Shown here: positions 6,964 through 47,598 of the stretch, one piece after another
Position numbering within the stretch: position 1 is the stretch's first letter
Layout of the letters: the number at the start of each line of letters is the position of its first letter
Source: Vicinamibacterales bacterium
GTDB lineage: Bacteria; Acidobacteriota; Vicinamibacteria; Vicinamibacterales; JAMQPK01
Assembly (NCBI GenBank): GCA_023717525.1
Contig: JAMQPK010000130.1
Coordinates: forward strand, 1 to 53,758
Direction of reading: 5' to 3'
DNA length: 53,758 nucleotides
Program-made: the position numbers and the translations under genes
The notes under the pieces: generated by a model
Database searches by the model: none
Told to the model about the DNA's origin: nothing
Seen by the model: the letters and a program-made list of their open reading frames with translations, nothing else

Positions 6964-7025
6964 GTCAGTCGATAGGCGATAGGCGATAGGCCATAGTCAG
7001 AGTCTATAGGCGATAGTCAAGAGTC
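6964..7025. repeat. Heptamer repeat arm, CGATAGG family (left)
   Basis: The array consists of 7-base units around CGATAGG, with variants such as GGCCATA and GGCGATA. It starts GTCAGTCGATAGG just after the BRCT/TPR stop. Its reverse complement lies at 7572-7630, with the same 13 outermost bases, so the pair forms imperfect inverted repeats of about 60 bases around one gene. Confidence 0.85.
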
Positions 7026-7056
7026 GGCGTGAGGCACTCAAACCGATGGGGGGGAG

Positions 7057-7557
7057 ATGCGCCACTGGACACCAGTAGTCACTGCGGCGTTGTTGTGCGC
7101 GCTGTTCTTCACCGGTGCGACTGCGCAGTCGAGTCAGCGACTGGAGCGGCTGATCACCAACGGAAACACAACCATTCAGGTCTTCGTGGAAGGTGTAGGC
7201 CCAACCGTCGTCATGCTTCCGTCGTTGGGCCGTGGCGTCGAGGATTGCACGACCTCGCCGGGGACGTGGTCCAGAGACGAACACCTCGCGGCTGTTGCGC
7301 GCGTGTTCTTCGCGACGGGTCAGAATCCGGCAGCGTGGGAGCACGGGTGGTACAGACAGACGCAAGAGTCGCAGGGCGCTGCCAATCGAGCCACGCCAGT
7401 CGCTAGTTGGTGGGCTGCCGGATCTGCTCCGGTGTTAGTACTGCAAGGGACCGAAGATGTAATCGCGCCCGCGGAGAACAGTCAGGCGCTTATGAAGGAG
7501 TTGCCCGAGCAACCTGAACTCATCGCGAAAGTGATTATCGACTTTCTCAGGCGATAG
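7057..7557 (+). pseudogene. Decayed alpha/beta hydrolase with in-frame deletions
   Basis: The 166-residue frame is open from an ATG that follows GGGGGGAG directly, and it has a signal peptide (about residues 1-23). It keeps the first strand of an alpha/beta hydrolase (TVVMLPSLGRGVEDC) and the late strand with the acid region (PVLVLQGTEDVIAPAENSQ). The middle of the fold, including the nucleophile elbow GxSxG, is gone, and the loop that should carry the catalytic histidine is shortened (KELPEQPELI). The protein is about half the family length, so activity is very unlikely. The cause looks like in-frame internal deletion rather than frameshift. It lies exactly between two inverted heptamer arms. 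Confidence 0.72.
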
Positions 7558-7571
7558 CAATCTTTCACGTC

Positions 7572-7630
7572 CATTGCCTATCGTCTATCGACTCTGACTA
7601 TCGCCTATCGACTATGGCCTATCGACTGAC
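7572..7630. repeat. Heptamer repeat arm, CGATAGG family (right, inverted)
   Basis: Units such as CCTATCG and GACTATG form the reverse complement of the arm at 6964-7025. The outer end is CCTATCGACTGAC, matching the first 13 bases of the left arm. It fills the space between the hydrolase remnant and the convergent gene ending at 7641. Confidence 0.85.
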
Positions 7631-18011: not shown

Positions 18012-18074
18012 GGCTTTTGGCTTTCGACTTTCGGCTCTTGGCCCAAAGCCTAGAGCCCAAGGCCTAGAGCCTAC
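18012..18074. repeat. Heptamer repeat hairpin, GGCTTTC family
   Basis: The array begins at the base after the fusA stop: GGCTTTT, GGCTTTC, GACTTTC, GGCTCTT, then complementary units such as AGCCTAG and AGCCCAA. It folds as an imperfect hairpin between fusA and rpsJ, where tuf is found in many genomes. Confidence 0.85.
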
Positions 18075-18085
18075 GAGGTTCAGAA

Positions 18086-18424
<339 letters not shown>

Positions 18425-18487
18425 GCTCCGGGCTCCGGACTCCGGACTTCAGGTACAGCCTGGAGCCTGAAGCCTGAAGCCTGAAGC
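18425..18487. repeat. Heptamer repeat hairpin, GCTCCGG/CTGAAGC family
   Basis: Nine exact 7-base steps follow the rpsJ stop: GCTCCGG twice, ACTCCGG, ACTTCAG, GTACAGC, CTGGAGC and CTGAAGC three times. The right half is the complement of the left (GCTTCAG against CTGAAGC-like units). It lies between rpsJ and rplC. Confidence 0.85.
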
Positions 18488-18500
18488 CATAGGAACTCAT

Positions 18501-19178: not shown

Positions 19179-19243
19179 TCAGTCGTCAGTTCTCAGTTGT
19201 CAGTTCAGACAACTGAAAACCGAAAACTGAAAACTGAAAACCT
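19179..19243. repeat. Heptamer repeat hairpin, TCAGTTN family
   Basis: The left arm starts at the base after the rplC stop (TCAGTCG, TCAGTTC, TCAGTTG, TCAGTTC). A 5-base turn follows, then the right arm (ACTGAAA, ACCGAAA, ACTGAAA twice). The right arm runs up to the rplD start codon, so it may cover the ribosome site. Confidence 0.88.
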
Positions 19244-20163: not shown

Positions 20164-20227
20164 TCAGTTCTCAGTTGTCAGTTTTCAGTAGCGACTCACT
20201 GAGAACTGACAACTGACAACTGAGAAC
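20164..20227. repeat. Heptamer repeat hairpin, TCAGTTN family
   Basis: The left arm is TCAGTTC, TCAGTTG, TCAGTTT, TCAGTAG; an 8-base turn follows; the right arm is TGAGAAC, TGACAAC twice and TGAGAAC. The stem is nearly perfect over four heptamers. It lies between rplW and rplB. Confidence 0.9.
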
Positions 20228-20243
20228 TTGCAGGATACAGAAA

Positions 20244-21976: not shown

Positions 21977-22684
21977 GTGGGTCAGAAAGTTCATCCGTAC
22001 GGATTCCGGCTCGGGTTCAACAAGACCTGGAAGTCGCGTTGGTTCGCCGACCGCGACTACGCGAAGCTGCTTCACGAGGATCTGGCGCTGCGCGCCGATC
22101 TGAAGAAGCGGTTCGCGCATGCCGGCGTCGCGAAGATTGAAACCGAGCGCGCGGCCAACAAGCTGAAGATCGACATCCACACCTCGCGGCCTGGCATCAT
22201 CATCGGCCGAAAGGGGACGGAGGTCGAAAAGCTGAAGGCCGAAATCCAGAAGCGGACCAACCGCGAAGTGTTCATCAATATTCAGGAGATTCAGAAGCCT
22301 GAGCTTGATGCGCAGCTCATCGCTGAGTCGGTGGCCCAGCAACTCGAGAAGCGCGTGGCGTTTCGCCGCGCGATGCGAAAGGCGGTCGAATCGGCGCTGC
22401 GGTTCGGTGCCCGGGGCATCAAGGTGCGTGTGTCCGGCAGATTGAATGGCGCGGAAATCGCCCGGTCGGAGTGGTACCTGCACGGGCAGCTGCCGCTGCA
22501 GACTCTGCGTGCGGACATCGACTACGGGTTTGCCGAGGCCAGCACGACTTACGGTCAGATCGGCGTGAAGACCTGGCTGTACAAAGGTGAGCGGTTGACG
22601 CCAAAGACGGCGCGCGAGGAAGAGTTCAGAGAGCGTGCCCCGCGCCGGCCGGCAGGTGGCGGCGGACGGGACGCAAGACAGTAG
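21977..22684 (+). CDS. rpsC: 30S ribosomal protein S3
   Basis: S3 is part of the mRNA entry tunnel and its helicase activity. The 235-residue protein starts at GTG 21977 ([14 protein letters not shown]), with AAGGAG just upstream. It has the KH domain loop [16 protein letters not shown] and the conserved [13 protein letters not shown]. The C-terminus ends in a Gly/Arg-rich tail. A longer frame upstream overlaps rplV and is rejected. Confidence 0.98.
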
Positions 22685-22780
22685 TTGTCAGTTCTCAGTT
22701 GTCAGTTTTCAGTTGGTAGTCGTTAGTCGTTGACCAATGACCACCACTGAAAACCGACAACTGATGACTGAGAACTGAGT
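22685..22780. repeat. Heptamer repeat hairpin, TCAGTTN family (long)
   Basis: Left-arm units after the rpsC stop are TCAGTTC, TCAGTTG, TCAGTTT, TCAGTTG, then GTAGTCG and TTAGTCG. The right arm (CTGAAAA, CCGACAA, CTGATGA, CTGAGAA) is the complement. At about 95 bases it is the longest copy of this family here. It lies between rpsC and rplP. Confidence 0.88.
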
Positions 22781-25713: not shown

Positions 25714-25734
25714 GAACTGACAACTGAGAACTTA
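25714..25734. repeat. Short heptamer array, NAACTGA family
   Basis: There are three 7-base units (GAACTGA, CAACTGA, GAACTTA) between the rpsH stop and the rplF start. They match the right-arm units of the TCAGTTN hairpins, but there is no left arm. It looks like a half-element or remnant. Confidence 0.7.
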
Positions 25735-45351: not shown

Positions 45352-45735
45352 ATGACTACTCGTAAATGGCTTCACGTGGCATTCGGCGTGGTGATTCTTG
45401 GTCTGTTGTCGACGGCGTCCACCGGCGCAATCTGGAATGCGAAGCGGACGACGTATTTCACGTTCCATCGTGCTGTGGCGATTCCGGGGATGTCGCTGCC
45501 GGCGGGCACCTACGTGTTCGAACTCGCCGATCCCAACACGCTCAATCTGGTCCGAATCCTGAGCAGGGATCGCCACAAGGTGTACTTGACCGCATTCACG
45601 ACATTCGTGGCGCGGCCGAACACCGGCAACATGGATTCGACGCTTGCCTTCGGCGAATCGTCCGCCGGCAAGCCTCCTGCCATCAAGGTCTGGTATCCGC
45701 AAGACGAAACGACTGGCCGCCAGTTCATCTACTAA
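45352..45735 (+). CDS. Small secreted protein, acidobacterial-type family
   Basis: This 127-residue protein has an N-terminal signal peptide or anchor (about residues 8-26). The rest is beta-rich, with TTYFTFHRAVAIPGMSLPAGTYVFEL and LVRILSRDRHKVYLTAF. Proteins of this look (a start that turns AxxLPGxxLPAGTY) are common in Acidobacteriota and of unknown function. A strong AAGGAGG precedes the ATG. A hairpin at 45757-45795 follows. Confidence 0.8.
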   Translation: MTTRKWLHVAFGVVILGLLSTASTGAIWNAKRTTYFTFHRAVAIPGMSLPAGTYVFELADPNTLNLVRILSRDRHKVYLTAFTTFVARPNTGNMDSTLAFGESSAGKPPAIKVWYPQDETTGRQFIY

Positions 45736-45795: not shown

Positions 45796-45822
45796 CACGC
45801 CTCAGGGCGCGCCAGCTAGTCC

Positions 45823-45850
45823 TCAGTTGTTAGTCTTCAGTTGTCAGTTC
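45823..45850. repeat. Heptamer repeat arm, TCAGTTN family (left of four-helix gene)
   Basis: There are four units (TCAGTTG, TTAGTCT, TCAGTTG, TCAGTTC). The third unit contains the stop codon of the four-helix-bundle gene on the other strand. The matching reverse arm is at 46263-46304. Confidence 0.9.
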
Positions 45851-46211
45851 GTGCGGTGCTCTTTACGACGGCCTTCAGGAGACCGCTTAAGACACGTTTG
45901 GTTTCTTCAATGTCACTTGCGAAGTCCATTCGCAGATCGCCATCCAGGAGCCGCAGATCGGCGGCAAGCGTGGCGTAGTAGTCGAGCTCTCCCGCGGATC
46001 CGAGTGCAATTCTCAAGTATCTGGCGAGTTCGCCCCGGCTCCCTCGACAACAGCCCTCAGCAATATTCGCGGGAATCGAGACGGCCGCGCGGCGCATCTG
46101 AGATGTGAGACCGTACTGCTCAGATTTCGGAAATGCTGCAGAAACTTCGTACGTCCGGAGAACCAAGGCGTGAGCCTTCTGCCACGCGAAGAGTCTCCTG
46201 AAGTCCTGCAT
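45837..46211 (-). CDS. Four-helix-bundle protein (S23/bAvd-like family)
   Basis: This 124-residue helical protein belongs to the family once called 23S rRNA intervening-sequence or S23 proteins, related to the Avd protein of diversity-generating retroelements. Family motifs are FAWQKAHALVLRTYEVSAAFP, LTSQMRRAAVSIPANIAEG and RYLRIALGSAGELDYY. Its function is unproven; the bundles may bind nucleic acid. The ATG at 46211 has no good ribosome site; a GTG at 46250 is possible. The last residues (RTDN) and the stop are written in a TCAGTTN heptamer array, and a reverse array lies upstream, so the gene fills the space between two repeat arms. Confidence 0.85.
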   Translation of the reverse strand: MQDFRRLFAWQKAHALVLRTYEVSAAFPKSEQYGLTSQMRRAAVSIPANIAEGCCRGSRGELARYLRIALGSAGELDYYATLAADLRLLDGDLRMDFASDIEETKRVLSGLLKAVVKSTARTDN

Positions 46212-46262
46212 CGAGGTGTTCAGTGCAAGACACAGTCCCGGAAAGAGCACCTCGCCTGCCGG

Positions 46263-46304
46263 ACTGAGAACTGAGAACTGAAAACTGAAAACTGAAAACT
46301 GACT
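46263..46304. repeat. Heptamer repeat arm, TCAGTTN family (right of four-helix gene, inverted)
   Basis: Six exact 7-base units (ACTGAGA twice, ACTGAAA three times, ACTGACT) form the reverse complement of the arm at 45823-45850. They end at the stop codon of the upstream permease gene. Confidence 0.92.
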
Positions 46305-47597
46305 ACTCGTGCCTCAGCGCCTCGATGGGATCGAGCCGAGCCGCACGAATCGCAGGATACATGCCGAAGAAAATGCCCACGCTCGCCGAGAAGCCGAGTC
46401 CAAGCGCGAACGACCAGAGCGGCAGCGACACGGGAAAGCCGGTGATGAAGTGCACACCGAACCCGATGGCACTCCCCAGAATGATCCCCAGTACCCCGCC
46501 GACCAGGGTCAAGACCACCGCCTCGGTCAGAAACTGAAACAGCACTTCACGGCGTCGTGCGCCCAGGGCACGGCGCACGCCAATCTCGCGCGTGCGCTCC
46601 GTCACTGTGATCGACATGATCGCCATCACGCCGATGCCGCCGACCATCAGGGCGATCGACGAGATCACGACGAGCGCAAGGAACGTGGCCTGGCTGATCC
46701 GGTCCCACAACTTCAGGAACGCGTCCTGTGTTTCCATGTTGAAGTCGTCGGGGTCGTCGAGCTTCAGACCATGGCGGCTCCGCATGATGCGCTGGACTTC
46801 GGCCATGGCCGCAGCCACCGTGACGCCCTCGCGGGGCTGAACCGAGATCTGCACCGGCACGAATCTCGCGTTCCGCGCGATCTGGACTGCGCGAAGCCCG
46901 AAAATGCGCTGGTAGGCGGTATAGGGAATCACCACAAAGTCGTCGGCGTTCACGCCGATGCCGCCCGCTGCGCGCTTGTCGTACACGCCAACGACCTCAA
47001 ACCGCTCCGAGCCCACTCGGACCATCTTGCCGACCGGATTGACGCCAATCGGCTCAAAGAGCAGTTTGTACGCCGTGTTTCCCAGCACGACGACGTTCTT
47101 TCGATACTGCACTTCCGTTCCGTTGAAGAACCGGCCACCCAGGAATGGGATGTTCGTTCCATCCTGGAACTTTTCCGTCGTCCCAAACACGATAATCGGC
47201 TTGGTCCTCTGGTCGCGATAAAAGACGCGTTGCTGAACGGAGCCCGGACCGCCGCCGCCAAGCTCGACGTCGACCGTTTGCAGCAGCGTCGCCTGTTCTT
47301 CGAGGGCTCGCGCGTCGGAAATCGTCAAAGTGGGTCGTTTTAAGAGCTGGGTGAACTCGTCGCCGTTCACGAAGTTGGTGAAGCTGAATCGCGAGATGAT
47401 GATCGTGTCCGGCCCCAGCTGCTGGATAAGGCCGCGCAAGGACTGATCGAAGCCGCGGATCATCGACGTCATGCCCACAATCGACGTGATACCGATGACC
47501 ACGCCCAGGACGGTAAGGCCCGAGCGCAGCTTGTTCGTGCGCAGCGTATCGAACGCCATCGCTACGACTTGCCCGAGGAGTGCAACCCGGAACGGCA

Positions 47598-47598
<1 letters not shown>
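46303..47598 (-). CDS. MacB/FtsX-type ABC transporter permease (second)
   Basis: This 431-residue inner-membrane protein has one helix near residues 28-50, a large periplasmic MacB-type domain (about 55-300) and three C-terminal helices. It contains the conserved cytoplasmic stretch TERTREIGVRRALGARRREVL and ends RAARLDPIEALRHE, the family signature. These proteins transmit force from an ABC ATPase to the periplasm rather than forming a channel. Its start overlaps the stop of the first permease (TAATG). No ATPase gene is adjacent. Confidence 0.93.

Follow-up and report, generated by a model that had tools for sequence, protein, structure and literature searches.

An S23-family gene enclosed by inverted heptamer arrays as a putative one-gene mobile element

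Why does a single small gene lie between the two arms of an inverted heptamer repeat, when other copies of the same repeat nearby enclose no gene? The question is raised by positions 45823-46304 of the window, the whole 53,758-nt stretch analysed here (contig JAMQPK010000130.1 of a Vicinamibacterales bacterium of the Acidobacteriota, GCA_023717525.1), where a minus-strand S23 gene is enclosed by TCAGTTN units and their inverted copies. TCAGTT lies on the plus strand at 45823, 45837 and 45844 and inverted at 46269, 46276, 46283, 46290 and 46297, and the motif occurs 43 times in the window against 15.6 expected, a count reached by none of 100 shuffles. Tandem Repeats Finder delimits period-7/14 arrays at 45817-45849, the arm 3' (downstream) of the gene, and at 46263-46302, the arm 5' (upstream) of it, with five or six tandem (A)ACTGA(A/G) units (no strand is assigned to these or to the gene-less arrays below). 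The open reading frame, 45837-46250, begins with GTG, although the ATG at 46211 is the likelier start of the four-helix-bundle (23S_rRNA_IVP) gene (45837..46211), whose TGA occupies 45837-45839. The frame ends in ...CGA ACT GAC AAC TGA, so that the stop codon falls within a heptamer of the downstream arm. On its outer side the right arm ends at 46302, immediately next to the stop codon (46303-46305) of a MacB/FtsX permease gene (46303..47598, minus strand), and a convergent ORF without a Pfam match (45352..45735, plus strand) lies on the other side. A sequence-only reading had proposed this enclosure and the stop codon inside a heptamer, and both are borne out by the site positions, arrays, shuffles and reading frame. 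Its statement that gene-less arms are followed by their reverse arm after 5-25 bases needs slight correction: three hairpins of the same unit family, at 19179..19241 in the ribosomal-protein cluster, 20164..20228 and 22683..22779, have loops of about 2-30 bases, and 25715..25732 is only a single array of that family.

The protein is a member of PF05635 (23S_rRNA_IVP; E 9.5e-33, 113 bits against a cut-off of 33.8) and of TIGR02436 (110 bits against 24). XCC0516 (PDB 2gsc), a structurally characterized relative, is a homopentamer (PMC4990558). The predicted fold of the window protein (pLDDT 97.3) matches XCC0516 with TM 0.97 and rmsd 0.7, and the next distinct structural match is Avd of diversity-generating retroelements (DGRs; TM ~0.82 to 4dwl and 8ub7). 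Structures of S23/IVP proteins have been available since 2006, and Avd is a pentamer like 2gsc. The kinship with Avd suggested earlier is thus one of fold and not of sequence, since the protein scores only 19.1 bits with the Avd profile (cut-off 80) and 15.2 bits with the bAvd profile (cut-off 40) and belongs to neither family. The shared fold speaks for the idea that a DGR-like or retron reverse transcriptase makes the arrays with S23 as its Avd-like accessory, an idea that is scarcely credible in view of these profile scores and of S23-rich genomes without RVT_1. No RVT_1 match is present in G003 (10 S23 copies) or G015 (6), both assembled as a single complete contig, or in G025, G024, G031, G014, a Nitrospira MAG and Hymenobacter piscis; in the genome to which the window belongs (hereafter the own genome), the only match is a split one at the end of a contig. 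Because S23-rich single-contig genomes lack RVT_1, a reverse transcriptase is not needed genome-wide, and it is refuted as a general requirement; a polymerase partner other than RVT_1 is possible. A RAYT origin was rejected, as Y1_Tnp (PF01797) has no match in the own genome.

To our knowledge, no function has been assigned to S23/IVP proteins. We know of no nuclease, transposase or polymerase domain in PF05635, which leaves the chemical step of any mobility unexplained, and no known catalytic domain was found in the S23 protein. For most pairs the dN/dS of the gene is about 0.03-0.15, with one pair at 0.3; several dS values are close to saturation. Judged by these ratios, the gene is under purifying selection.

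Enclosure by arms is the rule for this family. In the own genome (3.78 Mb; assembly 95% complete, with only order-level relatives for comparison), 16 of 17 S23 genes have inverted tandem arms. When the left flank is locally aligned with the reverse complement of the right flank, these 16 loci score 19-36, whereas mismatched flank pairs average 11-12, and random 315-bp segments of the same genome reach a score of at least 16 in 67 of 2930 cases (2.3%) and of at least 21 in 4 (0.14%). The tandem units are mostly 7 nt long and differ at nearly each locus: GAGTGAC, CAGTTNT, GGCTTTA, CGTGGGAGAA, GGTCCTT, GATAGGC, GAGGGAA, GAGGGCA, GTGATTGG, GTGCGGGAG, ATTGGNACA, GGTTCTA, TTTGAAA, CATCGTC, GAAGGTN and GTAAGAA. 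The only gene without matching arms (L007, G000:C174:46211-49531) has on its left a GTCGTTG array that forms one family with the gene-less GACCAAC arrays seen elsewhere, and may have lost one arm. The sequence-only reading would have been refuted by arm-less copies in this genome or by conserved synteny without the arms. Neither objection materialized: the copies are armed with mostly different units, and the sole syntenic relative found, in a genome of another family (L018 in G011), adjoins the same permease stop codon and carries the same CAGTTNT arms.

The same holds more widely. The S23 family is present in 29 of 40 genomes of the order, and 80 of 101 S23 copies in the own and related genomes exceed the 95th percentile of mismatched flank pairs (75 the 99th). 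The 95th percentile is exceeded by 62, and the 99th by 43, of 77 named loci, which come from Nitrospirota, Chloroflexota, Verrucomicrobiota, Planctomycetota, Acidobacteriota, Bacteroidota, Patescibacteria, Cyanobacteria, deltaproteobacterial and other lineages; for the 30 S23 genes of eight named genomes the numbers are 27 and 21. Armed S23 genes are also found on cyanobacterial, Gemmatirosa and Azospirillum plasmids and on IMG/VR contigs. Arms are not detectable at about 20% of S23 genes. Many of the genomes are MAGs, and some loci are orthologous and hence not independent. At 48 of the 80 armed loci of the order, no more than 10 bp separate an arm edge from the stop codon of an adjacent ORF, against 2.6% per edge for random positions, although stop codons contributed by the heptamers inflate this excess. 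Read inward, the strand is G-rich at 67 of 78 loci in the order and 58 of 60 named loci. A coupling of gene orientation to arm polarity was rejected as the source of this bias because an inverted repeat looks identical from either strand; the bias is a property of the hairpin, seen also in 18 of 25 gene-less hairpins.

Comparison of occupied with empty sites shows that arms and gene move as one block. On the conjugative plasmid C of Trichormus variabilis, a 428-bp block of arms plus gene follows the stop codon of a gene, and the ~97% identical plasmids of Aulosira laxa and Fremyella lack both the block and any heptamers at this site. GTAAT is repeated at the junctions (5 bp exact; ~8 bp with one mismatch), and adjacent BLAST blocks share 8 bases there, an apparent target duplication of 5-8 bp. 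A Scytonema plasmid has the insertion at the same site (414 bp, one arm 14 bp shorter). Picosynechococcus PCC 7003 likewise has an element, absent from PCC 7002, where cas10 ends in a type III-B CRISPR operon (cas10-cmr3); a Nostoc C052 plasmid compares in the same way with other Nostoc plasmids, and a Calothrix NIES-22 plasmid with those of Tolypothrix and Aulosira. In Nostoc ATCC 53789, another element (GGGAAAA unit) occupies a different stop codon of a homologous operon. Copies 78-81% identical, all with a CAGGAGT-type unit, are found at three different plasmid sites. This evidence comes from five plasmid comparisons, with less similar flanks outside the Trichormus and Scytonema cases (~97%); these alignments fulfil the criterion for a transposable element, clean occupied and empty sites with defined ends. 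One further candidate, an empty site for L050 within genus g4, was discarded because G015 has no S23 gene there but another gene and other repeats, and the site of L049 falls on different contigs in G026. At the Trichormus site, the Nostoc C052 plasmid pC052_E carries a decayed element (L295, 1520-1700) in which the 3' arm and most of the S23 gene are deleted, leaving the 5' arm and the beginning of the gene; such decay would be one route to single arrays. Two elements lie within CRISPR operons, the one in Picosynechococcus PCC 7003 (L136, cas10-cmr3) and one in Pseudanabaena (L132, cas6-cas4). Eighteen IVP genes have been noted in cas loci (PMC3936711), and these earlier reports may be explained as insertions of S23 elements.

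The empty sites bear directly on whether heptamer hairpins were there first and the S23 gene homes into them as a mere passenger, the arms being part of its target. Gene-less hairpins with the same units in the same genome would provide such targets, and the architecture resembles that of rRNA intervening sequences (IVSs), which replace the tetraloops of helices (PMC4990558). The close relatives, however, have no heptamer hairpin at their empty sites, which implies that the hairpin is not a pre-existing target and that the arms travel with the gene. Homing also does not account for there being about one S23 gene per unit family in the own genome (~16 units for 17 genes), a one-to-one occupancy that random insertion would give with a probability of ~6e-6 (a rough, post hoc estimate made by hand from the array-match counts), nor for the similarity of units being predicted by that of the proteins. 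Homing is thus very unlikely.

The gene-less arrays of a genome, judging from unit matches, use the units of its own S23 elements. In 429 kb sampled from the own genome (G000; ~11% of it), 52 of 72 gene-less arrays (72%) match an own S23 arm, against 3, 0, 0 and 7 (0-10%) that match the arms of G003, G025, G031 and G024, respectively. Own matches also outnumber foreign ones in G031 (15 of 24 arrays against 0-3), G003 (10 of 33 against 0-4) and G024 (8 of 34 against 0-2); the own match is weak in G025 (2 of 20). Period-7 arrays, counted without runs of N, number 3-12.6 per 100 kb in S23-bearing genomes and 1, 0 and 0 in 137-191 kb of the S23-free genomes G013, G009 and G033. G004 has 9 arrays despite having no detected S23 gene, and these perhaps remain after loss of S23. 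An AACGGTA/ACGGTGA array family (L224, L231, L236) recurs in the own genome, where no matching S23 gene was found in the 95% complete assembly. No clean insertion of a gene-less array was found in 50 kb of near-identical plasmids, so that spread of these arrays in trans rests on unit matching alone.

Unit and protein diverge together, with both arms in step. Protein similarity correlates with unit similarity among paralogues within genomes (Mantel r 0.33, p=0.0005) and across phyla (r 0.40, p=0.0005); the latter value may partly reflect base composition, whereas the former should not. Similar paralogues have similar units (L008 and L009 both GAGGG, L010 and L012 both ATTGG). At orthologous sites in genus g4, where the flanks are mostly ~77-87% identical, the S23 gene is kept and both arms have switched to a new unit, from CGGGTAC to CGGGAGT, from CGGCCTT to CGGCAGT and from TCATTGG to AAGGGGC.

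Such co-evolution is also expected if S23 is a sequence-specific transcriptional or post-transcriptional regulator of genes next to its arrays, if its own arms serve autoregulation and if spread is due to ordinary recombination and slippage. Arrays are concentrated at gene ends and inside ribosomal operons, and a regulatory role has been proposed for the TAACTGA repeats of Beggiatoaceae (PMC4679880). A regulator of this kind would not lead one to expect gene-plus-arm blocks inserted cleanly at new sites, arrays that adjoin functionally unrelated genes or a patchy distribution across phyla. A unit-binding regulator with the arrays as operators is possible though doubtful; it is the main rival with real weight. 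Cognate binding is predicted by both explanations, and the arms might serve a regulator as operators instead of being the ends used in transposition.

A further explanation places the function of the arms in RNA: their complementarity would let RNase III excise the stem from the transcript, so that the insertion is harmless to the host. The 23S rRNA IVSs with an S23 ORF of Leptospira and Coxiella likewise hold a PF05635 gene within complementary arms and show a patchy, apparently horizontal distribution (PMC4990558); excision by RNase III has been shown for Coxiella, and some S23 elements lie inside operons (cas10-cmr3). Arm mismatches on the coding strand at 163 loci comprise 262 G.U and 296 A.C (p=0.16). 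This lack of a G.U excess gives no sign that selection keeps an RNA stem. The sharing of units with gene-less arrays is also left unexplained, and this alternative is unlikely. IVSs are located in rRNA helices 9, 25 and 45 and are cut out by RNase III, whereas the S23 elements here are located at the ends of protein genes, have locus-specific tandem 7-10-mers as arms and lack evidence of stem selection. Insertion into an rRNA helix does not apply to the window element, which lies between the permease gene and the convergent ORF.

The reading that we favour, with a probability of about 0.72, is that the 480-base block represents a minimal autonomous mobile element with one gene. In this reading the S23 protein recognises the unit of its own element, and the gene-less arrays are dependents of that element. 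A single S23/IVP gene is enclosed by arms that repeat a short unit, mostly of 7 nt, in opposite orientations; gene and arms insert as one block at sites that had no hairpin, usually at the stop codon of a neighbouring gene or beside it. Block insertion, co-inheritance, specificity and selection are established, on sequence comparison only. The S23 protein is inferred to bind its own unit, either as DNA or in nascent single-stranded form, at a replication fork or within a cruciform. It is likewise inferred to promote copying, in cis of the complete element and in trans of gene-less arrays or hairpins. Catalysis, also inferred, might be supplied by host replication and repair enzymes or by an unrecognised activity of S23, and slippage and template switching between the arms could keep them alike while the unit drifts. 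The earlier suggestion that the gene makes or moves the arrays thus gains support from the empty sites, the genome-specific array matching and the protein-unit correlation, its action in trans remaining an inference; the suggestion that the window gene is the active form of the repeat system is tenable for TCAGTTN and not for all heptamer families.

On this reading the element works like REP/REPIN sequences and their RAYT (TnpA_REP), by analogy and not by descent. In both, the inverted repeats that flank the gene also occur in dispersed gene-less copies (for REP, many extragenic palindromes) of the same genome, and protein and repeat diverge together. RAYT is, however, an HUH/Y1 transposase, whereas S23 is an all-helical bundle without a known catalytic domain, and the S23 arms are tandem arrays of a freely varying unit. 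In known transposons the ends are fixed by their transposase; the end sequence of the S23 element, unlike theirs, would be free to change if both ends change together.

Once linked, widespread and unexplained bacterial heptamer repeats would gain a source and the S23 protein a role. Separate reports describe 7-nt arrays, intergenic and often inverted, from Xanthomonas (GGGAATC), Beggiatoaceae (TAACTGA), cyanobacteria and Geobacter (GGGACCG), none of them with a partner gene or a mechanism (PMC4692102; PMC4679880; PMC2700814). The 70-75 inverted pairs of Xanthomonas are not associated with mobile elements (PMC4692102), and the Geobacter arrays are described alone (PMC2700814). TAACTGA, the reverse complement of TCAGTTA and likewise present in ribosomal operons, occurs in Beggiatoaceae, cyanobacteria and Bacteroidetes, where 'no mechanism is evident', although it was remarked that the mobile element might be a repeat-binding protein (PMC4679880). 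The S23 ORFs of rRNA IVSs, for their part, have been regarded as selfish elements (PMC4990558). No link between S23 and tandem arrays was found in the open-access literature searched (subscription papers and preprints were outside its scope), and as far as that literature shows the link is new. It predicts, genome by genome, which S23 gene owns which repeat, and it accounts for S23 genes inside CRISPR operons as insertions. A wider proposition, with about equal chances of being right or wrong, is that S23/IVP elements form a new class without a known transposase or polymerase fold. In it the protein, aided only by host factors, would recognise and multiply its own tandem unit, each S23 lineage would seed its genome with a private heptamer family, and arms and protein would co-evolve as the unit drifts. 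S23 elements would then be the source of most unexplained bacterial heptamer arrays and include the rRNA IVSs as one specialised branch.

Some further arrangements were seen. G020 has two S23 copies 7 kb apart in opposite orientation (L083, G020:C1:46500-60300; 89% protein identity, both with a GGGTTCT-type unit), which have a single counterpart in G031. A conserved outer motif, CTCAGGTG...TAGRCTGAAG, is found at the arm ends of four deltaproteobacterial, Anammoxibacter and Nitrospira loci (L157, L176, L184, L217). In the window at 18012-18488, rpsJ (S10) lies between two GGCTTNN-type arrays, each of which also forms hairpins of its own. At 6967-7627, GATAGGC-family arms, with the unit of another S23 locus of this genome (L006), enclose no S23 gene but a 166-aa ORF with weak matches to alpha/beta-hydrolases, possibly an element with a passenger gene.
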